Assembly (NCBI RefSeq): GCF_004363305.1
Contig: NZ_SNZA01000003.1
Location: 248,001-312,000, forward strand
Length of the DNA stretch: 64,000 nucleotides
Origin: Marinomonas communis
GTDB taxonomy: Bacteria > Pseudomonadota > Gammaproteobacteria > Pseudomonadales > Marinomonadaceae
Direction: 5' to 3'
A program made the position numbers and the translations under genes. Under the pieces are notes generated by a model. That model was not told the DNA's origin. It searched no databases and saw only the letters and a program-made list of their open reading frames with translations. Below, one piece after another: positions 24,114-55,546 of this stretch. Within the stretch, counting starts at the first letter, position 1. The number at the start of each line of letters is the position of its first letter.

Positions 24114-25415
24114 ATGTTTTCGATTGGAAATAAAAAGAACCAGCAGGTATCTAAGACGGCAGATCAAGAGGAATTAACAAGACTTAAACGTGAGCTTAAT
24201 GCGATACGATCTCACACTGCTTTCATACGATTTGATCCTAATGGAAACATACTCAATGCGAACGGAATTTTCTTAGCCGCAGTAGGTTATACCTTAGAAG
24301 AAATCGTTGGTAAGCATCATCGAATGTTTTGTAAACCGGAATATGTTGAGTCAAATGAGTATCGAAGCTTCTGGTCCGACCTTGCTAGTGGCCATGCCTT
24401 TGGCGGGACCTATGAGAGACTCAACAAAAACGGCGATACCTTATTCCTTGAAGCGAATTATTTCCCTGTCAAAAATGAACAAGGAACGGTGACAGAAGTT
24501 ATTAAGATTTGTAACGACGTCACTAAAACCAAGCAGGATTTGAGTAATAAAAATGCCATACTTGAAGCTCTAGACCGGTCTCAAGCTGTCATCAGCTTCG
24601 AGCCTGATGGAACCATTCTAGACGCTAATCAGAACTTCCTTAATGTGGTTGGATACAGTCATGAGGAAGTGGTTGGTCAGCACCATAGAATGTTTTGTGA
24701 TGATGAGTTTTATCGTCAGAACCCTGACTTTTGGTCAAAGCTAGCTAATGGCGAGCTATCTCATGGGCGTTTCAAACGTATCGATAAAAGTGGCAACGTG
24801 CTGTGGCTCCAAGCAACTTATAACCCTATCTATGATGACAAAGGTCGAGTTCATAAGGTGATTAAATTTGCATCGGATATCACCGAGCGAGTGAGTCTAG
24901 CAATGAGCGCAGTAGAAATGGCCGCTGCAACATCGGAGCAAACGAGTCAGATCACATCAAATGCTGTGCAAGTACTCAGTGAAGCAGTTGATACGTCACA
25001 TAATATTGCAGAGCAGGTTTCGGAGGCGACACGTGTTGGTGAGCAGCTTATGGAGCAGTTTAAAAGTATCGCCGACATTGTTGTGACTATTCGCTCAATT
25101 GCGGATCAAACCAATTTGTTAGCGCTAAACGCAGCCATCGAAGCGGCTAGGGCTGGGGACGCTGGACGGGGCTTTTCTGTGGTGGCTGATGAGGTACGAC
25201 AGCTTGCGAGTAATACGTCCGACGCGACCGCAGAAATTACAAAAGTTGTGGACTTTAACCATGAGCTGATTAAGCAGATTGATACGGCATTAACTGCAGT
25301 ATCAGGTATTGCCATGCATGGAGAAGAAAGTATTAGCAATGTTTCCAAAGGCTTGGAAGAAGTCAGCCAAGGGGTTGAGCAATTTGTGCAAATGGTGGAA
25401 GCGATGCGCCCATAG
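24114..25415 (+). CDS. Soluble PAS-PAS methyl-accepting chemotaxis protein, BdlA-like
   Basis: Cytoplasmic chemoreceptor-type protein of 433 residues with no transmembrane helix. PAS domain 1 (~28-140) and PAS domain 2 (~148-262) are tandem relatives: each has a G-K/Q-H-H-R-M-F-C motif and ends in a PAC segment ([20 protein letters not shown]). A short MCP signalling domain follows, with the conserved hairpin tip [20 protein letters not shown]. Architecture and length match P. aeruginosa BdlA (biofilm dispersal) and Aer2-type receptors; function here is inferred. GGGGAAG precedes the ATG. It stands alone between a flavoprotein and a tRNA, just outside the flagellar cluster. The 226-base gap before it shows no sigma-28 motif. 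Confidence 0.88.
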
Positions 25416-25433: not shown

Positions 25434-25509
25434 TGGCGTCTCCACCAGGACTCGAACCTGGAATAGCCGCTTAGGAGGCGGCAGGTATATCCCGTTTACC
25501 TATGGAGAC
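25434..25509 (-). tRNA. tRNA-Arg (anticodon CCU)
   Basis: 76-base cloverleaf on the minus strand: acceptor GTCTCCA / TGGAGAC, D-arm GGTA...TACC, anticodon stem GCCGC / GCGGC with loop CTCCTAA (anticodon CCT), T-arm CCAGG / CCTGG around TTCGAGT, discriminator G and an encoded CCA. It reads the rare AGG codon and resembles E. coli argW. Confidence 0.96.
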
Positions 25510-26517: not shown

Positions 26518-27207
26518 CTAATAGTTTACTAAAACCTCTGAGTCACTGACAACTTTTCCGTACACTATTCGACCAGAACTTACGTTTTGAACGCGTATTT
26601 GTTGTCCCATTACCCCATCTTCTAGGGCTGTGCCGTTCATTTTAACTGAGATTGCGCCGCTCTGAGCGGTAATGAGTACGTTGCTGCCCTTTTTCACAAG
26701 ATCGGGGAGCTCTGTTAATTGGTCTGTTAAAAATGTATTGATACGAATATTTCTTGATGCCATGAGACCGTAAGGAGGGTTTGAGCTGGTGTAAAGATGT
26801 CCTCTAATAGTATTTAGATTGACTTCACCTATGCCTGTATTTTGCGGTGTAATGGCACCGCCGCGCTGAATGGGGGCGATAGCTTTAATGCCCTCGATGA
26901 ATATTTCCTGTGTCACAGGGACATAAGACTTCCAATTCGGGTTACGGCATTCGAGAGAATAAGTGGTCCTGCTGACGGCTTCTGGGCGCTGATTGTCTAT
27001 AATGACATCATGATCACATTCTGGCAGGTAACTCAGTGCTGCTTTATTCTGGATGCCTATTTCAATTCGGGCATTTGGATAGATACTTTGTAATCTTTTG
27101 TACTCAACCTGTTTGATGAATTGTTCTATTTGAGTTTCTATTTGTGACGCGCTACTCCAACAGGGGAGAAAAAGAAGTAATATGGATATAAGCTTGATGT
27201 GGCCCAT
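26518..27207 (-). CDS. flgA: FlgA, P-ring assembly chaperone
   Basis: Periplasmic chaperone that helps FlgI form the flagellar P-ring, 229 residues. The signal peptide lies at residues 1-20 (LISILLLFLPCWSSAS). The C-terminal SAF domain shows L-T-A-Q-S-G-A-I-S-V-K-M-N-G-T-A, then G-Q-Q-I-R-V-Q-N-V-S-S-G-R-I-V, a strongly conserved FlgA signature. It is divergent from cheV across a 127-base gap (27208-27334) in which I could not identify a clear sigma-54 or sigma-28 site. Confidence 0.92.
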   Translation of the reverse strand: MGHIKLISILLLFLPCWSSASQIETQIEQFIKQVEYKRLQSIYPNARIEIGIQNKAALSYLPECDHDVIIDNQRPEAVSRTTYSLECRNPNWKSYVPVTQEIFIEGIKAIAPIQRGGAITPQNTGIGEVNLNTIRGHLYTSSNPPYGLMASRNIRINTFLTDQLTELPDLVKKGSNVLITAQSGAISVKMNGTALEDGVMGQQIRVQNVSSGRIVYGKVVSDSEVLVNY

Positions 27208-27334: not shown

Positions 27335-28267
27335 ATGGCCGGAGTTCTCGAGAGCGTAAACCAGCGAACCCAACTCGTCGGAGAAAACCGTCTTGAATTA
27401 TTGCTTTTTCGATTAAACGGAAAGCAGATTTATGGCATCAACGTTTTTAAAGTAAAAGAAGTGTTGCAGTGCCCCAAATTGACTAACATGCCTCACAGTA
27501 GTCCTGTTGTACGAGGGGTTGCGCACATTCGTGGCGGCACGATTCCAATTTTGGATCTTGGGTTAGCAACTGGTGCAAGTCCAATCGAAAATATTGAGCA
27601 TTGCTTTGTGATCATTACCGAATACAACCGTCGTATTCAAGGTTTCTTGGTGCGTGGTGTAGAGCGAATTGTCAATATGAACTGGAGTGATATTCAGCCA
27701 CCTCCAAAAGGTTTATCAAACGACAACTACCTCACAGCAGTTTGTCAGGTTGATAAAGAAATGGTGTAAATCATCGATGTTGAGCAAATCCTGTCAGAAG
27801 TTGCTCCTACTCGTCAGAATATTTCCTCTGGTATTGTTACAGAAGATATTCAAGAAAATGCGAAGCAACATCATATCTTAATTGTGGATGACTCATCCGT
27901 AGCGCGTAAGCAGATTAAGCGCTGTATGGAAGATGTTGGTTTTGCTACGACTGTATTGTGTGATGGTAAAGAAGCCCTTACTTATCTTCAGAATTTAGTG
28001 GCTGATGGTGTTGATGTAACGGATCACTTCTCAATGATTATTTCAGATATTGAAATGCCTGAGATGGATGGTTACACACTCACCACAGCGATCCGAAATG
28101 ATAGCCGCTTACAAGATCTGTTTATATTGTTACATACTTCTTTGAGTGGTGTATTTAACGAAGCGATGGTGAAAAAAGTGGGAGCGGACGGCTTCTTAGC
28201 TAAATTCCAACCTGACGAACTTGCTAGGATCGCTATTGAGACGGTTGCGGCAACCGAAGAAGCGTAA
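27335..28267 (+). pseudogene. cheV: CheV chemotaxis coupling protein, interrupted by an in-frame TAA
   Basis: The frame encodes a full-length CheV (310 codons): a CheW-like coupling domain (codons 1-~160, with K-V-K-E-V-L-Q-C-P and VRGVAHIRGGTIPILDL) and a response-regulator receiver (codons ~180-310, with V-D-D-S, phospho-acceptor in IISDIEMPEMDG, and a K in L-A-K-F). It is broken by TAA at 27767-27769, codon 145, inside EMV-stop-IIDVEQIL. Family alignment expects a glutamine-like residue there, so a single CAA to TAA change explains it. No frameshift is needed and the downstream frame is intact. The 144-residue CheW part could still be made; the receiver could restart only weakly (for example GTG 27884). 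A sequencing error remains possible. Confidence 0.88.
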
Positions 28268-28304: not shown

Positions 28305-29138
28305 ATGCTAAGTAGTTCTGGTTCTATCTCTCCTCAAGGTTATGACCGCTTTCGAAAGTATCTTGAGAAAGAAAGCGGTATTTCTTTAAGTGATAATAAA
28401 CAATACCTTGTGGCAAGTCGCTTAGGCAAACTGCTAGAGCGAGAGAAGTTCACGAAAATTGAAGAGTTGGTTGCCGCACTCGAACGAAGCGGACGAGTCT
28501 CCAAGCTTCGTGAAGAAGTGATCAACGCCATGACGACGAATGAGACGTTGTGGTTCAGAGATAGTCACCCTTTTAAAATTTTAAAAGAGCTGATTCTCCC
28601 CCAGATGGATAAACGTCCCGTTCGTATTTGGTCGGCGGCGTCTTCAACTGGCCAAGAACCTTACTCTATTAGTATGATTCTTGAAGAGTACAAACAGCTC
28701 AAGCCTGGTGCTCTTAAGCCGGGCGAGAAAATTATTGCCACAGATATTTGTACAAATATTCTTCAGCATGCAAAGCAAGCGGAATACGACAGTTTGGCTA
28801 TTGCTCGAGGTTTGAGTCCTGATAATCAAAATCGCTACTTCGAGAAATTGAGCGATTCTGTTTGGAAAGTGAAGCCTCATATCTCTTCAAGGGTAGAGTT
28901 TAAACATCTTAACTTGATTGACTCATTTACAACGCTTGGAAAATTCGATGTCATTTTCTGCCGTAACGTACTTATTTACTTCACTGCAGAAACCAAGCTA
29001 GACATTCTTAAGCGAATGCATGCATCTTTAAATCCTGGCGGCTACTTATTCTTAGGTGGATCTGAGGCGCTAAGCGGTTTGTCTTCTATGTTTGATATCG
29101 TTCAATGCCACCCAGGTATTGTTTATAAAGCGAAATAG
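28305..29138 (+). CDS. cheR: CheR chemotaxis protein methyltransferase
   Basis: SAM-dependent enzyme that methylates glutamates on chemoreceptors, 277 residues. The N-terminal helical domain (~10-80) leads to T-T-N-E-T-L-W-F-R-D, the SAM-binding segment RIWSAASSTGQEPYSI and the FDVIFCRNVLIYF motif, all conserved in CheR. ATG 28305 is preceded by AAGGAG at 5 bases; the GTG at 28299 overlaps that site and is rejected. It follows cheV by 37 bases, the usual flagellar-locus pair. Confidence 0.93.
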   Translation: MLSSSGSISPQGYDRFRKYLEKESGISLSDNKQYLVASRLGKLLEREKFTKIEELVAALERSGRVSKLREEVINAMTTNETLWFRDSHPFKILKELILPQMDKRPVRIWSAASSTGQEPYSISMILEEYKQLKPGALKPGEKIIATDICTNILQHAKQAEYDSLAIARGLSPDNQNRYFEKLSDSVWKVKPHISSRVEFKHLNLIDSFTTLGKFDVIFCRNVLIYFTAETKLDILKRMHASLNPGGYLFLGGSEALSGLSSMFDIVQCHPGIVYKAK

Positions 29139-42111: not shown

Positions 42112-42969
42112 ATGGCTTTGTACGTAAATACTAATGTCTCATCCATAAATGCTCAAAACCAGTTAATGAAGTCAGGAAATACGCTTGATACAGCTTATCA
42201 GCGTCTATCTTCTGGTCTACGTATTAACAGTGCTGCAGACGATGCAGCTGGTCTTCAAATCTCAAACCGTTTAACGTCTCAAATCAACGGTTTGAACCAG
42301 GCAGTACGTAACGCTAATGATGGTATCTCTCTAGCGCAAACCGCAGAGGGGGCGTTGGATGAAACAACAAGCATGTTGCAACGAATGCGAACTCTAGCGA
42401 TTCAATCAGCTAACGGCTCGAACTCTGATGAAGACCGCGTCGCTCTACAGCAAGAGATTTCTCAACTTGCTACTGAAATTAACCGAGTGGCCGAAACAAC
42501 TACATTTGGTGGTCAGAACTTACTTGACGGAACTTACGAAGGTATTTTTCAGGTAGGTGCAGATGCTAATCAGACGATTTCTTTCTCATTGAGTACTGTG
42601 AATAGTTTAGCTGCAGCTCAAGGCTTTAGTATTTCAGGTATGAGTAGTGTTTACACTTCTACTACTATTACGATTAGTGCTGCTTCTTTGGCGCAGTCTG
42701 CCATTGACCAAATTGGCAATATGATTGCGGCAGTTGATGCTAAGCGTGCAGAGTTGGGTGCGGTGCAAAACCGATTTACATCTACTATCAGTAACTTAAG
42801 TAATATTTCTGAAAACGTATCAGCCGCACGATCACGTATTCGTGATGCAGACTTCGCTGAAGAAACTGCGACTTTAACTAGTGCTCAAATTCTACAGCAA
42901 GCAAGTTCAACAATTCTTGCGCAGGCTAACCAAAGACCACAAACAGCCCTATCTCTACTAGGGGGCTAA
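42112..42969 (+). CDS. fliC: Flagellin, first copy
   Basis: Filament subunit of 285 residues. Its conserved D0/D1 domains are almost complete: N-terminal [28 protein letters not shown] and C-terminal [35 protein letters not shown]. The middle domain is very short. It has own sigma-28 promoter and AGGAG ribosome site. It is near-identical in protein to the second flagellin at 43447, yet the DNA differs at many third positions. Ser/Thr in the short central region are the plausible sites for nonulosonic acid added by the Maf enzyme encoded nearby. Confidence 0.95.
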
Positions 42970-43446: not shown

Positions 43447-44304
43447 ATGGCTTTATATGTAAATACTAATACATCATCGTTGAACGCTCAGAACAACTTG
43501 ATGAAATCTGGTAACACGCTTGACACTGCTTACCAGCGTTTGTCTTCAGGCATGCGTATCAACAGTGCAGCAGATGATGCTGCAGGTCTTCAAATTTCAA
43601 ACCGTTTGACTTCTCAGATCAATGGTTTGAACCAGGCTGTTCGTAATGCGAATGACGGTATTTCTTTGGCTCAAACGGCTGAAGGTGCGCTAGACGAAAC
43701 TACTAGTATGCTTCAGCGTATGCGTACACTTGCAGTGCAGTCTGCTAACGGCTCCAACTCAGATGAAGATCGTGTTGCACTACAGCAAGAGATTTCGCAG
43801 CTTGCCACTGAAATTAACCGTGTTGCTGAAACAACTACTTTTGGTGGTCAGAACCTTTTAGATGGTACTTATTCTGGTGTTTTCCAAGTAGGTGCGGACG
43901 CAAACCAAACTATCTCGTTCTCTTTGAGTACAGCTAACACTGCAGCTACGGCTGGTGCTGGTTTTACGATTTCAGGTATGAGTAGTGTGTACACATCGTC
44001 TACAATCACTATTAGTGCAGCTTCTTTGGCGCAATCGGCAATTGACCAAATTGACAATATGATTGCCGCGGTAGACTCTCGACGTGCTGAATTGGGTGCG
44101 GTACAAAACCGTTTTACATCTACTATTAGCAACTTGAGCAATATTTCTGAAAACGTATCGGCTGCCCGCTCACGTATCCGTGATGCAGACTTTGCGGAAG
44201 AGACAGCTGCTTTGACTAGTGCTCAGATCTTGCAACAAGCAAGCTCTTCTATTCTAGCCCAGGCTAACCAGCGTCCTCAAACTGCGCTATCCTTATTAGG
44301 TTAA
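43447..44304 (+). CDS. fliC: Flagellin, second copy
   Basis: Second filament subunit, also 285 residues. It differs from the copy at 42112 at only a few dozen positions, mostly around residues 145-210, for example S-G-V-F versus E-G-I-F and the T-A-A-T-A-G-A-G stretch. AGGAGG precedes the ATG. The stronger promoter match and ribosome site suggest it may be the major subunit. A strong terminator follows. The pair probably arose by duplication, but many synonymous differences show it is not recent; protein identity is being maintained. Confidence 0.95.
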
Positions 44305-46691: not shown

Positions 46692-46997
46692 ATGTCTATT
46701 GAATATACTCCTGAAAATTTATTGAAATTGCTCTCTTCCTTTTCTAAAGCAATTACGGATAAAGATATTGACGCCCTTCTAGCTATAGATAGCTATATTT
46801 CTGAGTTAATTAAGAGAGAGTTATTAACACAAGAATTCATAGCTATACACAAGGAAGAAATGACTCAGTTATATGCTTTGATGAGAGAGTCTGAGGCTTG
46901 TATCGAGGTTCTTAAAAGTGAAATTAAAACTGAACAGTCAGACCTGAAGAAAAAAGTAAAGATTTCTAAACGTTATTTGGATATAGAGAGGCTGTAA
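46692..46997 (+). CDS. Small helical protein, probable FliT-like flagellar chaperone
   Basis: 101-residue, predicted all-alpha, charged protein with a Lys-rich C-terminus. No motif identifies it by sequence. Its position directly after fliS, its size and its helical composition match FliT, the FliD chaperone, which diverges quickly. The call therefore rests on context. Its stop overlaps the start of the Maf gene (TAATG), so the two are translationally coupled. The region is clearly more AT-rich than the upstream genes. Confidence 0.6.
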   Translation: MSIEYTPENLLKLLSSFSKAITDKDIDALLAIDSYISELIKRELLTQEFIAIHKEEMTQLYALMRESEACIEVLKSEIKTEQSDLKKKVKISKRYLDIERL

Positions 46998-49087
46998 TGT
47001 CTGAGGTGTCAGAAATAGATGCTATCATACGCCGAATGGAGCGAGGATTAAAGGTTCTTAAAGCAAATGATGACATTTTGACTGAGCGTTATTTGAGTAA
47101 TATAAAAGTTATTGAAGAGAATTTCCCTCAGATTTATACCATCATCAAAGACTATAAACCCTCTAACAATAATATTTTCGTAGAGGAAGACGGTTCTCTA
47201 AATTTATTATTTCCTGATAGTGGTTATACGTTATTTTCAGAAACTCCTTTTCAGCAAATAGAAGAAAAATACAAAAGGTTTATCAGTAATCCTGACAGAA
47301 CTTATGTGAACTTGTCAGTTGAATTAACAGATCGATCTAGGCATGAGTTTTATTTAAGTAAAATTCATGTTGATAAAGAAAAAGCTAAAAGTAGTGCAGA
47401 AAAATTAACAATAATGCCCCGTGTGGTAGGCGGAATTGTTTTATTTGGTTTTGACTTGGGCTACCAATTAATTCGTATATTAGATGAGCATTTCGCAAAG
47501 CACATCTATATTTACGAGGAGAATCTTGACCTATTCTACTACTCTCTCTTTGCGATAGACTGGGAATGGGTTGTGAATGAAATGGTTGAACGGGATTGTT
47601 CATTACACTTTTTTCTAGGTATTGATGAGAGTGAGTTTATCAACCAATACCTTAGGGTTTTGCGGCTTAATGGCATGTATATGGCTGCACATACTTATCT
47701 GTACTCTAGCTACAGTGCGCAGCATATTCAGCCTGTATTGACCGAATTTAGGAATCAATTTGCTAAGCAAGTTATGGGGTGGGGCTTCTTTGATGATGGT
47801 GTGATAGGCATAGGTCAATATTTAGCAAGACAGAATAAAACTTATTTAGCTGTAAAGCCTGAGCAAGATCTAAGGTTTGGTTTTAATAAGAATCTTGATA
47901 TCCCTGTCTTTATCCTAGGTAATGGTCCATCTCTAGATGATAATATAGAGTTTGTGAAAGCCCATCGAAATGACGTTATTCTAGTGTCATGTGGAACGAC
48001 ACTTAATACACTTTCTAAGTATGGTATTAAACCTGATTATCATGTTGATGTAGAGCGCATGCGTCATACAGCAGAAAAAATATCTTTTGTTGATAAGGAG
48101 TTTTTAAAAGGGATTACCGCTTTAACGGTTAATGTGATGCATCCAGAGTTCTACCAGTACTTTGAGAAAAGTATTATTGGTTTAAAGCCGGGTGAGCCTA
48201 TTTCATCTTTGATGAGAAATAGACTGGTTTCAGAGGAAAATAGATCTCGTCTTATGGATATGCATTTCTCATCACCTATCGTTGCCAATTTGGCTTTGTC
48301 GTATGTTTTGCAAATGGGATTCTGTGATGTATATATGATTGGGGTGGATTGCGGTTTTAGGTCTCCTGAACTACATCATTCTAAAGTAAGCGGTTATTAT
48401 ACGAAAGACGGTGAAAACTCTGGTCTTATGCCTTTAGCTTCGGATCATATTAGACGTGAAGCCAACTTTGGTGGTATTGCTTTAACTACTTCTATTATGG
48501 ATATGTCGCGTATTCAGCTTGAGCTTCTTATCAGCTTCTTTCGACCAAAAAACCGAATGTTTAAATGCTACAATTTATCAGATGGTATTAAGATAAAAGG
48601 AACAGAACCTTTACGTGCAGAGGATGCATTAATAGCTGCCCAGGCCGAAGGTAGGAAAAATAAAGTAAAGAGTTATGTTTGGGATAACTTTGTAGTAGAA
48701 GAGAACTCTGATTTTAGTGATTGGAGTAGTCTCGATGTTAAAGATGAGTTTGAGTTATTTTGTGATGAAGTTACGAATATTTTAGATAATGATTTTCAGA
48801 CTAAGGAAGATATTTTAAAGAATGTTTCTACACTGAATAATTTAGTTATGCTTCAATACAACTTAGGAAAGTCATATAATATTGAGCTCATGTTTGGATC
48901 CTTTGTTTACTTTGCTAATGAGCTTCTTGATTATGTGTTGTCAGTAGAAGTATTTGACATGAAAGAAGTTAGATCTATGCTGAATATTTTTAAAGATTTT
49001 GTTCAAGAAATGCCATCCATGTTAGAGGACCCAAGGCAATCGGTTGATAAGCGTGAAGATGTTTTAAAAGGTAAATATCACGCTTGA
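46997..49087 (+). CDS. Motility-associated factor (Maf) glycosyltransferase
   Basis: Large cytoplasmic enzyme of 696 residues from the DUF115/Maf family, which transfers pseudaminic or legionaminic acid from its CMP form to Ser/Thr of flagellin before export. The central MptE-like domain begins around residue 305 with the diagnostic VFILGNGPSLDDN, then VSCGTTLNTL and GIKPDYHVDVER, with G-V-D-C-G-F later. N- and C-terminal flanks are variable. It lies between the flagellar genes and the convergent legionaminic-acid operon, linking sugar and acceptor. AT-rich sequence suggests a different history from the flg genes: the line 46741-46800, in the gene just upstream, has only 19 G+C of 60. Confidence 0.9.
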   Translation: MSEVSEIDAIIRRMERGLKVLKANDDILTERYLSNIKVIEENFPQIYTIIKDYKPSNNNIFVEEDGSLNLLFPDSGYTLFSETPFQQIEEKYKRFISNPDRTYVNLSVELTDRSRHEFYLSKIHVDKEKAKSSAEKLTIMPRVVGGIVLFGFDLGYQLIRILDEHFAKHIYIYEENLDLFYYSLFAIDWEWVVNEMVERDCSLHFFLGIDESEFINQYLRVLRLNGMYMAAHTYLYSSYSAQHIQPVLTEFRNQFAKQVMGWGFFDDGVIGIGQYLARQNKTYLAVKPEQDLRFGFNKNLDIPVFILGNGPSLDDNIEFVKAHRNDVILVSCGTTLNTLSKYGIKPDYHVDVERMRHTAEKISFVDKEFLKGITALTVNVMHPEFYQYFEKSIIGLKPGEPISSLMRNRLVSEENRSRLMDMHFSSPIVANLALSYVLQMGFCDVYMIGVDCGFRSPELHHSKVSGYYTKDGENSGLMPLASDHIRREANFGGIALTTSIMDMSRIQLELLISFFRPKNRMFKCYNLSDGIKIKGTEPLRAEDALIAAQAEGRKNKVKSYVWDNFVVEENSDFSDWSSLDVKDEFELFCDEVTNILDNDFQTKEDILKNVSTLNNLVMLQYNLGKSYNIELMFGSFVYFANELLDYVLSVEVFDMKEVRSMLNIFKDFVQEMPSMLEDPRQSVDKREDVLKGKYHA

Positions 49088-49097
49088 TATGGCCTTT

Positions 49098-49871
49098 TTA
49101 GACTGAGAATCCGTCATCTACAACAATATTCTGGCCAGTTACATGTTGTGATTGGTCAGAAAGTAAAAAAATAATAGATCCAGTAACCTTGTCTACAGAT
49201 AACATGCCCTCACCATGAGTGTTATCTTTATAAGAGGCTAAAAATGCTTCTGGTTGGTGGTCAAAAATCCCCCCCGGGCTAACGCAGTTCACTCTAAACT
49301 TACTATTTTTCACATAGGCCACTGAATACTTAGTTAGATGTATAAGAGCTGACTTTATCGCGGCATATTCAACAGGCATACTCATTGAAGTATCGTTGTA
49401 TACATCAAATTTTGGAGCAATCACACCATATATAGAGGAAATATTGACGAGTGAAAATGGTGATTGGCGTTCTTTGAAGTAAGCGGCGCATTGCTGCATG
49501 AATAAGAAGCTACTGCCAAGATGGAGTGACAAATTTTCGTTGAAACTTGCTTGTGACACTTCAAAAAAGTGCGCGCCATAGGTCCGATTTCGAGGGTATG
49601 TCGTGTTGGCCGCACCATCCAGCGCTTTAATATTGGCAAAGAACTTTTTCACATCACTCTCATTTGTGATGTCTAGAGTTGTTAGCTCTAAAGACGGATA
49701 TTCGTTTGCATTGATACCTAAAGATACGAGCCTTTGCTGGATACGTTCAATATCGAGGTCAGCAGCAATAACTGAAGCGCCTTGCCATAGGCAATCTTTT
49801 ACTAATTGTGATCCAAGTAGTCCTGCTGCACCTGCAATGAGGATAGTTTTACCTTGGAGTAAGTCAGTCAT
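49098..49871 (-). CDS. ptmA: PtmA-like SDR oxidoreductase
   Basis: Short-chain dehydrogenase of 257 residues. It has Rossmann motif GAAGLLG near residue 14, catalytic Y-x-x-x-K in E-Y-A-A-I-K and C-V-S-P-G-G-I after it. It resembles PtmA from the legionaminic-acid loci of Campylobacter. Its exact reaction there is not settled. It is last of the operon, overlapping legF by 8 bases, with AGGA upstream, and its stop is 11 bases from that of the convergent Maf gene. Confidence 0.8.
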   Translation of the reverse strand: MTDLLQGKTILIAGAAGLLGSQLVKDCLWQGASVIAADLDIERIQQRLVSLGINANEYPSLELTTLDITNESDVKKFFANIKALDGAANTTYPRNRTYGAHFFEVSQASFNENLSLHLGSSFLFMQQCAAYFKERQSPFSLVNISSIYGVIAPKFDVYNDTSMSMPVEYAAIKSALIHLTKYSVAYVKNSKFRVNCVSPGGIFDHQPEAFLASYKDNTHGEGMLSVDKVTGSIIFLLSDQSQHVTGQNIVVDDGFSV

Positions 49872-50562
49872 TTTGGATATCCTTTAAAATACTTTCTGCC
49901 AACTTGAAATCATAAAAATCGTCAATATCGACCGCGCGTTGCTTTGGCATAACAATAGCGACGACTTTTCCATCAAATAGTGCGTTGTTTTTCAGAATAA
50001 AATCTGGTGTTGAAACATACACTCCTGTGGTGATGTCATATACTTCAGGAGTATCCTGCCTTCTTGTTATACCGGTACTTTGGGGAATAACCAACTCGAC
50101 TTCTTCTGAGTGCGAAAATCGCTTTACCATATTGAAATAAGGGCTTCGGCTAGCGGGTGTAACTGATATGCATATATCTGCCGCCTCTGCCTGATGTTTT
50201 GAGATCGCAGATTCAACATCTTCTACTGCTCTTAATGGGCATGTGGCCGGTAAGCTAACGAAGTGGTCAAACGAGCCATAATGCTTCTGTGCCCATTCAA
50301 TTGCATGTCGCCAGCTAAGCCACTCGGGACTGGTATCTGTGGCAAGATTTTTTGGACGTGGAATAATTGTCGCACCAGCTATGGTTGCACATTTAGCTAT
50401 CTCTTTGTCATCGGTAGAAACAAATACATGACTAATAGAAGGGCACGCTATTGCTGTTTCGATAGCGTAATGTATAAGAGGTTTACCAAGCAGCGGTTTG
50501 ATATTTTTTCCTGGTAAGCCTTTTGAGCCACCTCTAGCAAAAACAAATGCAAAGCAAGTCAT
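49864..50562 (-). CDS. legF: CMP-legionaminic/nonulosonic acid cytidylyltransferase
   Basis: Activates the finished nonulosonic acid with CTP to make the CMP-sugar that Maf uses. 232 residues, NeuA/LegF family. N-terminal F-A-R-G-G-S-K-G-L-P-G-K-N is the CTP-binding loop, followed by VSTDD, L-P-A-T-C-P-L-R and the acidic D-I-D-D-F-Y-D metal motif near the end. GAGGC before ATG. Assigned to legionaminic rather than sialic acid from the surrounding genes. Confidence 0.87.
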   Translation of the reverse strand: MTCFAFVFARGGSKGLPGKNIKPLLGKPLIHYAIETAIACPSISHVFVSTDDKEIAKCATIAGATIIPRPKNLATDTSPEWLSWRHAIEWAQKHYGSFDHFVSLPATCPLRAVEDVESAISKHQAEAADICISVTPASRSPYFNMVKRFSHSEEVELVIPQSTGITRRQDTPEVYDITTGVYVSTPDFILKNNALFDGKVVAIVMPKQRAVDIDDFYDFKLAESILKDIQND

Positions 50563-50568
50563 AGTGCC

Positions 50569-51558
50569 TCAATTAGTGGTTTGTATCAGTGGGTAGCGCT
50601 TTATTGCTTCTATTAACTCTATGATCGAAAGTGCTTCATCAACAGTGGCTAAGGGTTTTTCTTTATTATATGAAGAGCAAATAAACGCCTCAAACTGTTG
50701 AGTATACATTTGGTTCTTATCCCATTCTGGAGCACTGTAAAGAATCTCTTTTTTACCTGATAAGGAGATTGTGGTTACAGTATTGAGTATTAGGTCCCAT
50801 TCTAAGGAACCCCCGCTGCCGACTATACGCCATCGGCGATAGGGCGTGCGTTGTAGGAAGTCTAGGTGAACGTGTGCGATGACTTTAGACGAATTGCTCA
50901 ATAGGAGGTCGACGCAATCTTCTACATCTGTATCGAGTTCAGGCATGGAACGTAAAATAGCGTGTTCCAAAGTCAAGTTACCTAGTAGCCACTGCGCCAA
51001 ATCAAGCTCGTGACTTAGCTCAAGTAAAGCTCCTCCTCCACATTTTCTTTGAGCCGAAACGGACTGCCTATAATCGATATCAGGACGCCAACTTGGTAAA
51101 TATTGCCCTACTTCAATAGACACATTATAAAGCTGCCCTAGTCGCTGTTCATTGATTACTTGTTTGACTACAGCGGAAGAGGGTAGGAAGCGTAAGCAGT
51201 ACCCAATGGCTACTCTAGTGTGATTCTCATGTACAAGTTTAGCCAGCTCATAAGCATCCTCTATTGAGGCAGACAGTGGCTTTTCAATCAAGACCGGAAT
51301 ACCTGCTTTAATAAAACCTTGGGCGTGTTGTAGATGCAGAGAAGCAGGTGAAGCGACGATGGCGCACTGGATATTACACCGCATAAGCTCAGTTACTGAT
51401 TCGACCAGTTGGTCTGCGTTTTCAACCCGTTTTTGATTGGTAGGCAGAAGACCTCGTGCAGGCATGCTAATAATGCACGCGCTAGGGAAATGCTGGCGGA
51501 TATTTCGCCGATGCCGTGTAGCTATACTGCCAAGGCCGATGACTCCAATACGTTCCAT
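50569..51558 (-). CDS. ptmF: Gfo/Idh/MocA oxidoreductase, PtmF-like
   Basis: NAD(P)-dependent oxidoreductase of 329 residues. The N-terminal Rossmann motif G-L-G-S-I-A and the E-K-P-L-S-A segment, where K is the catalytic Lys, are typical of Gfo/Idh/MocA. It matches the PtmF position in legionaminic clusters. The substrate is not established. Its start overlaps the ptmE stop by one base, and legF follows 6 bases downstream. Confidence 0.75.
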   Translation of the reverse strand: MERIGVIGLGSIATRHRRNIRQHFPSACIISMPARGLLPTNQKRVENADQLVESVTELMRCNIQCAIVASPASLHLQHAQGFIKAGIPVLIEKPLSASIEDAYELAKLVHENHTRVAIGYCLRFLPSSAVVKQVINEQRLGQLYNVSIEVGQYLPSWRPDIDYRQSVSAQRKCGGGALLELSHELDLAQWLLGNLTLEHAILRSMPELDTDVEDCVDLLLSNSSKVIAHVHLDFLQRTPYRRWRIVGSGGSLEWDLILNTVTTISLSGKKEILYSAPEWDKNQMYTQQFEAFICSSYNKEKPLATVDEALSIIELIEAIKRYPLIQTTN

Positions 51559-52622
51559 TAATGTTCGAACTCCAATGAATGAATGTCAGATTGAGCGCGA
51601 TTGAAGTCATCTAATCTACCAATGTCCAACCAGTATTCATGGATTGGGAACATGAGAATTTGATCTCGTTCGCTCATATGCTGCTCCAGCAATTTAGGCA
51701 TATCGATGCGATGATTCTCTGGAACAGATTGGATAACTCGATGAGAGACAACATAAATACCGGCATTGATAAAAAAACGTTGAATGGGCTTTTCTACCAT
51801 GCTTTTAATCTTGCCATTTTGCCCATTGATGACGCCATATGGGATTTGATAATCGTACTCAGTGACACACATCGTAGCATCCCCGTCATTCTCTACATGA
51901 AAATTGAGTAGGCGGGTAAAGTCGACATTCGTCAGAATATCGCCGTTTATCATTATAATCGGTAAGTCTTTAGGAAGGTCCTTTGGTAATAATCCTAGTG
52001 CGCCGCCTGTGCCAAGAGGCTCTTGTTCATGGACATAGGTAATTGACACACCGAGTTTTGAACCATCACCAAAATACTCTTTGATTTTTTCCGGCATGTA
52101 ATGAGTCGAAATATAAAAGTTTTCGAAGCCGGCTTTAATAAAACTCAGTATTTGCGTTTCTAGTATAGGCTTCTTACCTATCTTAAGCATGGGCTTGGGA
52201 CAATGGTCGGTCAGAGGTTGAAGTCGAGTGCCAAAACCGCCAGCCATAATAAATACAGGGTTTTTGTAATGTGTTTTTTGGGAGTGTTGGTTGAGAAATT
52301 CTACCCCTACCAATGTATTGTCTGCGTCAACAATAGGTAGTGATAGGATGCCATGCCTTGTCATAATTTCGACAAGCTTCTGTCTTGATGTTGCTTGTGT
52401 GGCAGTAATTGGGGTGCGACTCATTATGTAATGAACTTCATCCGTCAAGGATAAGTTATTAAGCAAACCTCTGCGAATATCGCCATCAGTGATTACACCT
52501 ATCAAGCGCTCTTGGTCATCAATGACCATGGCAAAACGCAATGCTTCGTTGTTAATGATTTCTAATGCTTCGCGGATAGAATTATGAGATTTTAATAGTA
52601 CGTTGCGCCAATTTTTTTTCAT
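51558..52622 (-). CDS. ptmE: PtmE-like sugar-1-phosphate nucleotidyltransferase with CBS pair
   Basis: 354 residues with a tandem CBS module (residues ~1-115, with G-V-I-T-D-G-D-I-R-R) followed by a nucleotidyltransferase domain (GGFGTRLQPLTDHCPKPML, then NGDILTNVDF). This fusion is the mark of PtmE, the glucosamine-1-phosphate guanylyltransferase that starts the GDP-linked legionaminic pathway in Campylobacter. CBS domains may regulate it with adenine nucleotides. A small internal P-K-D-L repeat occurs at ~215. AGGTGA precedes the ATG. Confidence 0.83.
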   Translation of the reverse strand: MKKNWRNVLLKSHNSIREALEIINNEALRFAMVIDDQERLIGVITDGDIRRGLLNNLSLTDEVHYIMSRTPITATQATSRQKLVEIMTRHGILSLPIVDADNTLVGVEFLNQHSQKTHYKNPVFIMAGGFGTRLQPLTDHCPKPMLKIGKKPILETQILSFIKAGFENFYISTHYMPEKIKEYFGDGSKLGVSITYVHEQEPLGTGGALGLLPKDLPKDLPIIMINGDILTNVDFTRLLNFHVENDGDATMCVTEYDYQIPYGVINGQNGKIKSMVEKPIQRFFINAGIYVVSHRVIQSVPENHRIDMPKLLEQHMSERDQILMFPIHEYWLDIGRLDDFNRAQSDIHSLEFEH

Positions 52623-52637
52623 AAGTCACCTATTTAC

Positions 52638-53297
52638 CTAAAGCTCAGAGGGTGCGATAAACGCATTGGCAGAATGTGCTGTTTGGTTGCTTTGCAGGTG
52701 ATCCTTTACAACTGCTCCCGCGCCCACAATAACCCCTTTATCAAGGTGTAGGTTAGGTAAGACAGTTGCGTTAGCACCCACGAAAACATCTGTTGCAGTA
52801 ATGACACCTCCGCATAGTACTGCATTGGGTGCGATATGATTGAAGCTTCCTAGTTGGCAGTCATGCTCTACTAGAGCGCCAGTATTAATGATACTGTATG
52901 CACCAATTGATACCCCTGCCTGAATAACTGCTCCAGGAAATATTTGGCAGGCCTCACCAACGTCTGAAAATTTTGAAACAATGGCCTTGTCTGATACCAC
53001 GCTTATGAACTGATAACCCTTGTCTAAGTAGTAGCTTTGAATCTTTTGTCGACGATTTGACCTAGGTACTATGCCTATTCCATTTACAAGAAAAACATCG
53101 GAAGCCTGAAATTGTTCGATGTCAGAATCATTTCTAAGCTGCTGTATCCCTTTAAATATATTGCGTTGGTTAATTTCATCAGGACTAATGAAAGCCTTAA
53201 TCGAGTACCCTTGGGACAGCAAAATATCTGCCAGTACTGAGGCATGTCCACCAGCACCTATCATGATGATAGGCTTGAGAGGATGTTGATTAGTCAA
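52638..53297 (-). CDS. legH: NeuD/PglD-type sugar acyltransferase (LegH role)
   Basis: N-acetyltransferase of the left-handed beta-helix family, 219 residues, expected to acetylate the 4-amino sugar nucleotide. The N-terminal Rossmann-like part has MIGAGGHASVLADIL. The C-terminal hexapeptide repeats include A-P-N-A-V-L-C-G-G-V and V-G-A-N-A-T-V-L-P. Start choice: TTG 53297 has GGAGAT at good spacing and overlaps the legI stop. The longer frame from 53375 runs 86 bases into legI and lacks a family match. The TTG start is unusual. Confidence 0.8.
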   Translation of the reverse strand: MTNQHPLKPIIMIGAGGHASVLADILLSQGYSIKAFISPDEINQRNIFKGIQQLRNDSDIEQFQASDVFLVNGIGIVPRSNRRQKIQSYYLDKGYQFISVVSDKAIVSKFSDVGEACQIFPGAVIQAGVSIGAYSIINTGALVEHDCQLGSFNHIAPNAVLCGGVITATDVFVGANATVLPNLHLDKGVIVGAGAVVKDHLQSNQTAHSANAFIAPSEL

Positions 53298-54363
53298 GGA
53301 TGATATCTCCAAGTTTATATTCTCTTTGTGCTTGTCGGCCAATGGTATCCCAATATAGATAAGGGGACTTACCATTTCCTGGACGTTTAGTTCCTATATT
53401 GTTTTCGGTAAAAGATTCCCCGACTTTAATAGGTTGAATCGCAACTAAGCTTTTTCGAGCAATCACCTTATTTTTTAATTCAGCTGGAGAAGGTGCTTTT
53501 AGTGGGCTACCCAAGGCGCTCTCTACGAGTCGAATGCCTTCTACCATCGCTTTGAGTTCTTGGGGTTCTAGAGAGGCTTTATGATCCGGACCAGGTAAGT
53601 TTTGACTTATAGTAAAATGTTTTTCTATAACCCCTGCTCCTCGTGCAACGGCAGCCACAGGTACGGTAATGCCACTAGTATGATCCGAATACCCAATAGG
53701 TAAACCGAATGCATTATGCAATGTGTCCATTGCCCGAAGATTCACATCTTCAATGGCGGCTGGATATTCTGTTGTGCAGTGCAACAATATGACTTTATTT
53801 CTTAATGCTTGCTGACCTTCGCTAGATAGATAAGCCGACATAAATGCAGCTTGTGAGGGAGGCACTTGAGGCCCACATGTCAGACCAAATGCTATGACCT
53901 GAAGAGCCATTTCAACCTCTGCTAGAGTGGCCATACCTGTAGAGACAATTAGCTCACAGCCACTACGGGCGTGGGCAAGAACTAATGGTGCATTGGTCAG
54001 CTCTCCTGATGGTATTTTAAGACGCTTTAACCCGATGTCCTTGACTAAAAAAGTGAGGCTTTCTTCGTCGAATGCGGTGGACAAAAACTCAATTCCTAAT
54101 GATTGACAGTAGCTAAGTAACCGATGATGAGCTTCATAGGGAAGTTCAAGTCGGCTGAGCATTGCTAGCTGGGTCTCTTTCCGTTGACTGTTTTTGGCTT
54201 GGTACTCCGCTTGTTGTGCATGTTCTGTAACAAGGTTCTTCGCCTTGAAAGTTTGGAATTTGACGATGTCAGCTCCTGCTTCATAGGCCGCTTTGACAAG
54301 CTCAAAAGCTAAACTTTCATCTCCATTATGATTGACGCCTGCTTCAGCAATAATAAGTGTCAT
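53290..54363 (-). CDS. legI: Legionaminic acid synthase (NeuB family)
   Basis: Condenses the released 2,4-diacetamido sugar with phosphoenolpyruvate to give the nine-carbon acid. 357 residues: TIM barrel opening with IIAEAGVNHNG, then VKFQTFK, IPSGELTNAPL, STGMATLAEVE and KHFT, followed by a C-terminal SAF antifreeze-like domain (R-K-S-L-V-A-I...G-T-K-R-P-G-N-G). I chose ATG 54363 because AAGGAA stands ~9 bases upstream; ATG 54369 is too close to that site. LegI, NeuB and PseI are hard to split by eye; context favours LegI. Confidence 0.87.
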   Translation of the reverse strand: MTLIIAEAGVNHNGDESLAFELVKAAYEAGADIVKFQTFKAKNLVTEHAQQAEYQAKNSQRKETQLAMLSRLELPYEAHHRLLSYCQSLGIEFLSTAFDEESLTFLVKDIGLKRLKIPSGELTNAPLVLAHARSGCELIVSTGMATLAEVEMALQVIAFGLTCGPQVPPSQAAFMSAYLSSEGQQALRNKVILLHCTTEYPAAIEDVNLRAMDTLHNAFGLPIGYSDHTSGITVPVAAVARGAGVIEKHFTISQNLPGPDHKASLEPQELKAMVEGIRLVESALGSPLKAPSPAELKNKVIARKSLVAIQPIKVGESFTENNIGTKRPGNGKSPYLYWDTIGRQAQREYKLGDIILD

Positions 54364-54376
54364 AGTCATATTTCCT

Positions 54377-55546
54377 TTACTTCGCAAGTTGATAATCGAG
54401 GTCGTAGAAAGTCTTTACGGGCTTACGCGGTAGTTGTCTGATCATTTGAATAACGGCTTCACTAGCGTTGCCTTGACCATAGGGGTTATCAACTTGCTTG
54501 CCTTTAGCTGTATCATGCCACTGGATCGCAGCAAGAATTGTTTTCACAATATCCGTCTCATTAGCAGCTGTGTTTAATACGCTGCTTGCAGCTAAGCGTC
54601 CCTTTTGGCGGATGCCGATATTTACCGTGGGAACGTTAAAGCTAGGAACTTCAATAATGCCACTTGAGGAGTTACCTATAACGGCCGTTGCATGTTTTAC
54701 CGCACTTAAGTAACGTATCTGGCCTAAGGATTTAATGCTCAATACGCGATTGGAGTGGGCTCTAGCATATGCCTCTAGTATTGGGATGATTAGCCTTCCG
54801 CCATCATCGGCATTAGGGTAGGTAAGTATGACTTTATGGCTGTCCAATACATAATCAAGTGCTTTAAGCAGTGCCTGAAAGCTGGTTATAGGGTCTTCTT
54901 CTCCTGCTGTCACAGGATGATAGGTGACAAGAAAGTAAGGGTCATTAAGCTCGAAGTCCAGAGACTTGCTGAGCTCGTCAAGCGACATAAAATTTGATCG
55001 CTTGATATGATCAAGGCCAACGGCTCCTATATTAAAAACTCGTTCAGGACTTTCTCCCAGTTGAATCACTCGCCGACGGTAGGGTTCTGTGGCTGTACCA
55101 TGAAAATAGCTAAACTTAGTAATAGCGTGCCGAAAGGCGTCATCATAAGCCCCCTCTGTAATTTCACCTCCATGGAGGTGGATGACGGGGATACGTAAAA
55201 TAGCTGCGCTCTGTGCTGCAGCCAAGGCTTCAAATCGGTCTCCAAGAATAACTATGGCGTCTGGCTTTAGGCGAGTTAATGCATCCGTAAAGCCTAGAAT
55301 GCCAAGCCCTAAACTTTTAGCTGTTCCCGTTGCGGTGTTGGAAGAGAGAAGCATTTCCACTTTTTCATCAATGACAAAGCCATCATGCTCAATTTGTTGA
55401 TATGTTTCACCAAACTCAGGAGATAAGTGCGACCCTGCTACTAATAATTGTAGAGTCATATCCGGTTGCGCTTGGATGTCTTTCAATAGCCAGTACAGCA
55501 AGCCATACTCTGCCCTAGTACCTGTAAAAACTGTAATTTTGATCAT
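54377..55546 (-). CDS. legG: UDP/GDP-sugar 2-epimerase, hydrolysing (LegG/NeuC)
   Basis: 389 residues, NeuC-type fold. It inverts C2 and hydrolyses the nucleotide to release the free sugar for LegI. Visible motifs are TGTRAEYGLLYWLL at the N-terminus, LGDRFEALAAA, HLHGGEITEGAYDD with catalytic His/Glu, and GNSSSGIIEVPSF for nucleotide binding. AAGGA precedes the ATG. A pseudaminic pathway would use PseG instead, so this gene supports legionaminic acid. Confidence 0.88.
   Translation of the reverse strand: MIKITVFTGTRAEYGLLYWLLKDIQAQPDMTLQLLVAGSHLSPEFGETYQQIEHDGFVIDEKVEMLLSSNTATGTAKSLGLGILGFTDALTRLKPDAIVILGDRFEALAAAQSAAILRIPVIHLHGGEITEGAYDDAFRHAITKFSYFHGTATEPYRRRVIQLGESPERVFNIGAVGLDHIKRSNFMSLDELSKSLDFELNDPYFLVTYHPVTAGEEDPITSFQALLKALDYVLDSHKVILTYPNADDGGRLIIPILEAYARAHSNRVLSIKSLGQIRYLSAVKHATAVIGNSSSGIIEVPSFNVPTVNIGIRQKGRLAASSVLNTAANETDIVKTILAAIQWHDTAKGKQVDNPYGQGNASEAVIQMIRQLPRKPVKTFYDLDYQLAK

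Follow-up and report, generated by a model that had tools for sequence, protein, structure and literature searches.

The cheV gene in the flagellar cluster of this Marinomonas strain is interrupted by a single in-frame stop codon, and we think it probable that this represents a very recent nonsense (loss-of-function) allele. Within the window, that is, the whole stretch of 64,000 nucleotides that was analysed, the cheV frame occupies positions 27335-28267 of the plus strand and comprises 144 residues, a TAA at codon 145 and a further 165 residues up to a second stop (Table 1). In Pfam searches, the 5' part matched CheW over profile positions 1-125 of 138, and the 3' part matched Response_reg over positions 1-107 of 111. 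Translation and Pfam thus agree with the initial annotation, which had described one in-frame TAA in an otherwise complete CheV consisting of a CheW-like domain and a receiver. As the TAA separates the two domains, they would share one polypeptide, as in a CheV, only if the stop were read through, and the annotation should mark cheV as one interrupted gene, not as two proteins. The case amounts to an ordinary single-codon interruption of a chemotaxis gene that is conserved and has an intact paralogue, or to a base error; the stop is ordinary gene loss and not a new kind of system. No published cheV nonsense allele was found in the literature searched, where absence is no proof that none exists.

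Table 1. Features of the interrupted cheV gene and its direct neighbours (positions within the window).
Feature	Position	Strand	Basis or remark
Truncated CheW-like domain (5' part of cheV; 144 aa)	27335..27769	+	cut off within the last beta strand of the CheW fold
In-frame TAA stop, codon 145	27767..27769	+	all relatives examined have Glu here
Orphan linker and receiver domain (3' part of cheV; 165 aa)	27770..28267	+	Pfam, start-site scoring
Asp238 codon, conserved phosphoryl-accepting position	28046..28048	+	invariant in 25 aligned rows
cheR, intact	28305..29138	+	Pfam CheR and CheR_N; directly downstream of cheV
flgA, intact, divergent from cheV	26518..27207	-	Pfam ChapFlgA

Aligned to 46 Marinomonas rows, cheV showed codon 145 as its sole defect, and the alignment beside the break was gapless, as the initial annotation had also stated. 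The read-through product was matched by its best relatives across 310 of 310 residues. Its descent from CheV is apparent from 88-98% identity to eight Marinomonas CheVs and 61-68% identity to fifteen CheVs from other genera. Because relatives match over the full length and the stop is unique among the matches listed, a chance open frame was ruled out. The receiver possesses the phosphoryl-accepting Asp and the acidic pair of a CheV, with D185, D186 and D238 being invariant across the 25 aligned rows. A part of the earlier reading that did not hold was the proposed route from CAA to TAA. The interrupted column contains Glu, not Gln, in all 46 Marinomonas rows, which correspond to 36 distinct coding sequences and include some species present in both of the collections used, and likewise in 80 of 80 named loci, 17 of which are also among the 46 rows. 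Since Glu occupies this column without exception, the CAA to TAA change is unsupported, and a Gln codon as the origin of the stop was ruled out.

We then turned to the distribution of the stop among relatives. With the receiver half as query, an uninterrupted cheV orthologue was found in each of the 34 other genomes of the genus, at 83-99% identity and in stop-free open frames of 312-339 aa. In a wider search, the read-through protein was compared with 293 genomes of the order, of which 126 matched at E 1e-60 or better; among the 150 matches listed from this search, an internal stop occurred only in the cheV studied here. The named loci best matching the first half were headed by 17 that all belong to Marinomonas (92-99% identity). 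Sister strains in which the two parts form separate genes and the receiver part has a functional start were looked for at the species level and were not found. Because the relatives examined do not have the stop, it is a recent change or an error, as the initial annotation had anticipated.

The age of the stop was approached by comparing the two halves of the gene. Relative to the nearest relative that was fetched (83.5% DNA identity), the first half showed 53 synonymous and 4 nonsynonymous differences, and residues 146-300 showed 85 synonymous and 4 nonsynonymous differences; by this comparison, both halves appear to be otherwise strongly constrained. Besides the stop, N51 is the only residue of this cheV that is unique among the 46 rows up to residue 306. 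Against six relatives, we counted 1 private residue of 144 in the first half and 0 of 155 in residues 146-300. Three intact relatives treated in the same way had between 0 and 3 such residues in each half, so that this cheV shows no excess. The lineage has 12 private third-position states in residues 146-300. When these 12 changes are scaled by the number of sites (about 103 synonymous and about 362 nonsynonymous), about 42 private replacements would be expected under no constraint along the whole private branch, compared to the 0 that were seen. From these numbers, the unconstrained share of the private branch would be at most about 7% (3 of 42). The disruption is thus confined to one lineage and unaccompanied by decay, and an older pseudogene was ruled out by the lack of sequence decay. 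Because almost no amino-acid change has accumulated, the sequence comparison indicates either a very young stop or a base error.

That the living strain carries an intact cheV and that one consensus base is wrong, by a sequencing or assembly error, appears rather unlikely to us. Such an error would fit the lack of amino-acid decay on either side of the stop, the intact state of the relatives examined, and the fact that the stop stands alone, all other substantive genes in the part of the window that was compared being undisrupted. However, a very young real mutation would look equally neat, no second defect marks a poor stretch, and isolated substitution errors are uncommon in drafts of the quality of this assembly (3.85 Mb in 11 contigs, scoring 100% complete). 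Where the window could be compared with two sister genomes (G015 and G003), no substantive gene other than cheV contained a stop. Other rows flagged for stops (eight for G015, five for G003) were set aside, being short minus-strand frames opposite plus-strand genes, as was one short plus-strand frame overlapping the flagellin genes, where the near matches are tandem flagellins. G015 offered little or no matching sequence for the first 3 kb of the window and for roughly its last 17 kb; G003 matched from 2 kb on, and the listing of open reading frames shows long open frames between 34 and 62 kb. Internal stops were found in none of 39 receptor-domain matches (38 over the family cut-off and one under). 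Among 13 CheW matches, 12 were without an internal stop, the thirteenth being the interrupted cheV itself. The assembly is therefore not generally damaged, as cheV alone is disrupted in the compared part and the receptor-domain and other CheW matches are free of stops; widespread assembly damage was not seen.

With the very recent nonsense allele as the preferred reading, we asked what the interrupted gene may still produce. The initial annotation had held that the strain makes a CheW-like half. This claim found no support, as the stop cuts the CheW domain itself. In a model of the read-through protein, the last strand of the CheW domain covers residues 142-147 and the closing helix residues 149-156, and since the stop at 145 falls within this strand and ahead of the helix, the domain is incomplete. 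Correspondingly, the profile match ends at position 125 of 138 in the truncated half, compared to 136 in the intact second CheV of the genome (CheV2) and 137 in the CheW of the main chemotaxis cluster, so that the fragment does not have the complete domain of a stand-alone CheW-like protein. CheW proteins from E. coli (2HO9, 6S1K) and T. tengcongensis (2QDL) have the same fold as the first domain of this cheV, and the complete proteins extend beyond the point where the truncated product ends. Structure prediction gave a mean confidence of 37.8 for the 144-residue fragment (18 rows) versus 83.0 for the whole protein (25 rows), a comparison without a matched control that is suggestive only of poor folding of the predicted product. 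Because the stop truncates the CheW domain, removing part of the last strand and the helix, a null allele is likelier than a CheW-like half.

In principle, the two halves might also work as separate proteins, with the receiver started internally or by reinitiation. The receiver part retains its conserved Asp without any private change, and the break lies shortly before the inter-domain linker, both of which would suit a functional split; nevertheless, we consider it extremely improbable. The true cheV start at 27335 has a strong Shine-Dalgarno sequence that pairs with the 16S tail at -10.2 kcal/mol, and the cheR start reaches -8.7 kcal/mol. The first ATG, GTG or TTG after the stop is GTG 27884 (codon 184), which scores +1.7 kcal/mol and thus has no ribosome site. 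It lies where the receiver's first strand ends (residues 180-184 in the read-through model), and starting there would drop most of this strand. Rare starts did not have a ribosome site either: none of the 13 common or rare in-frame starts in 27770-27989 was better than -2.8 kcal/mol, where the local background has a median of -1.5 kcal/mol and its lowest 5% lie at -5.9 kcal/mol. Hence, in these 220 bases no start with a ribosome-binding site of its own precedes the receiver domain, as a stand-alone receiver would have. Furthermore, the stop leaves the CheW fold of the first half incomplete, and no relative examined is divided in such a way.

Some full-length CheV could still arise by stop-codon readthrough or through a suppressor tRNA, which the fully kept downstream frame would permit. 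We regard this as very unlikely. An anticodon reading UAA was found in 0 of 68 tRNA genes, scored in stretches containing all 68 covariance-search matches; this set is probably incomplete, as it includes no tRNA-Ile and as 150 of 208 first-look candidates were scored. An ochre suppressor tRNA was thus not present among the 68 genes of this probably incomplete set. In addition, the 39 receptor-domain and 12 other CheW matches are without internal stops, and for this reason there is no sign of a changed genetic code.

The interrupted gene is located in the flagellar block, between flgA on the minus strand and cheR. That cheR and the neighbouring flagellar genes are intact, as noted initially, was borne out by their open frames and by the Pfam matches given in Table 1. 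For cheR, ATG 28305 was chosen as the start for its Shine-Dalgarno sequence; the list of open reading frames gives GTG 28299. Among 80 related loci, a cheR match begins within 400 bases of the cheV end in every one, and 64 also contain a flgA match. The flagellar block adjoins a receptor gene (24114-25415) encoding 433 aa with PAS domains and an MCP signalling domain, which has the same length in G015 and, by eye, no obvious membrane segment. A tRNA-Arg gene (anticodon CCT; 25434-25509, minus strand) lies between this PAS-PAS receptor gene and a gene that we take to resemble flgN, about 1.4 kb inside a segment that has diverged from G015. DNA identity to G015 is 93-97% in most 1-kb steps from 10 to 24 kb and about 66-85% from about 24 kb, where the flagellar block starts; before 10 kb, identity is lower in places. 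This pattern of identity suggests that recombination in one or the other lineage exchanged the flagellar region. Farther downstream, two tandem genes (42112-42969 and 43447-44304) encode 285 aa each; the first matches flagellin models, and the same flagellin-like frames of G015 match the second. They are followed by a region (46997-55546) with NeuB- and NeuC-type genes over their cut-offs and a weak match, far below cut-off, to the PseD model of a flagellin modification protein; the region may be an island for the sialic-acid-like decoration of flagellin.

A search for a second complete cheV, as recommended in the initial annotation, was positive elsewhere in the genome. CheV2 (G000:C1:631441-632367; L141:9432-10367) is an intact protein of 311 aa with both domains. 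It has the same two domains as the interrupted cheV, to which it is 52.6% identical, but is itself uninterrupted, and no cheR or flagellar gene was seen by eye among the open reading frames of at least 150 aa in the 9 kb listed around it. The main che cluster (C3:415-435 kb) has open frames for a CheY-like receiver, CheZ, CheA, CheB and CheW. Across 35 Marinomonas genomes, each has at least two kinds of CheV, 83-100% and 46-52% identical to the receiver half studied here.

What the loss of this gene may entail can be judged from CheV function elsewhere. As reported for P. aeruginosa (PMC12691637), the single CheV, encoded together with CheR1 in gene cluster V, is needed by a subset of receptors and requires D238. 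According to this report, the cheV mutant lost most of its response to nitrate and alpha-ketoglutarate as well as visible aerotaxis and kept, among others, the responses to L-Val and L-Gln, and a D238S variant did not restore function. In the account of Ortega and Zhulin (PMC4742279), CheV is argued to serve particular receptors and possibly to act as a phosphate sink. By its description in PMC12691637, the P. aeruginosa protein resembles this cheV in its cheR partner, in the design of CheW-like domain and receiver, and in the Asp at residue 238; the difference is that P. aeruginosa has one CheV, whereas the present genome has a frame stopped at codon 145 plus a second complete CheV. Identity to this cheV is 66-68% for the CheVs of L067 and L079, two other Pseudomonas genomes, the likeness to the P. 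aeruginosa protein being one of description.

If the very recent nonsense allele is real, translation of cheV would start normally and stop at codon 145. The resulting CheW-like fragment, which would not have the end of the last strand and the closing helix, probably does not fold, as judged from the structural model, and the receiver part would not be made. Phosphorylation-dependent coupling of receptors to CheA by this cheV is therefore expected to be lost: CheV-dependent chemoreceptors would be deprived of their phosphorylation-gated coupler, CheW-coupled receptors would keep working, and CheV2, at about 53% identity, may partly compensate. Non-folding, loss of function and an effect on behaviour are inferred; by analogy, the chemotaxis defects of the strain would be selective and not general, and CheV2 may soften them. 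A more speculative proposal, which we hold to be improbable, is that the loss is tolerated as CheV2 carries the CheV-dependent receptors or, bolder still, that the halves work as separate proteins.

If CheV2 does carry these receptors, the strain would be a natural experiment indicating that the two Marinomonas CheVs are at least partly interchangeable. Should the stop be real, the strain would naturally be without one of its two CheV couplers. A lead beyond the stop itself is that all 35 Marinomonas genomes have two or more kinds of CheV, which bears on how a bacterium with 38 receptor-domain matches over the cut-off may divide its receptors between two phosphorylation-gated couplers.
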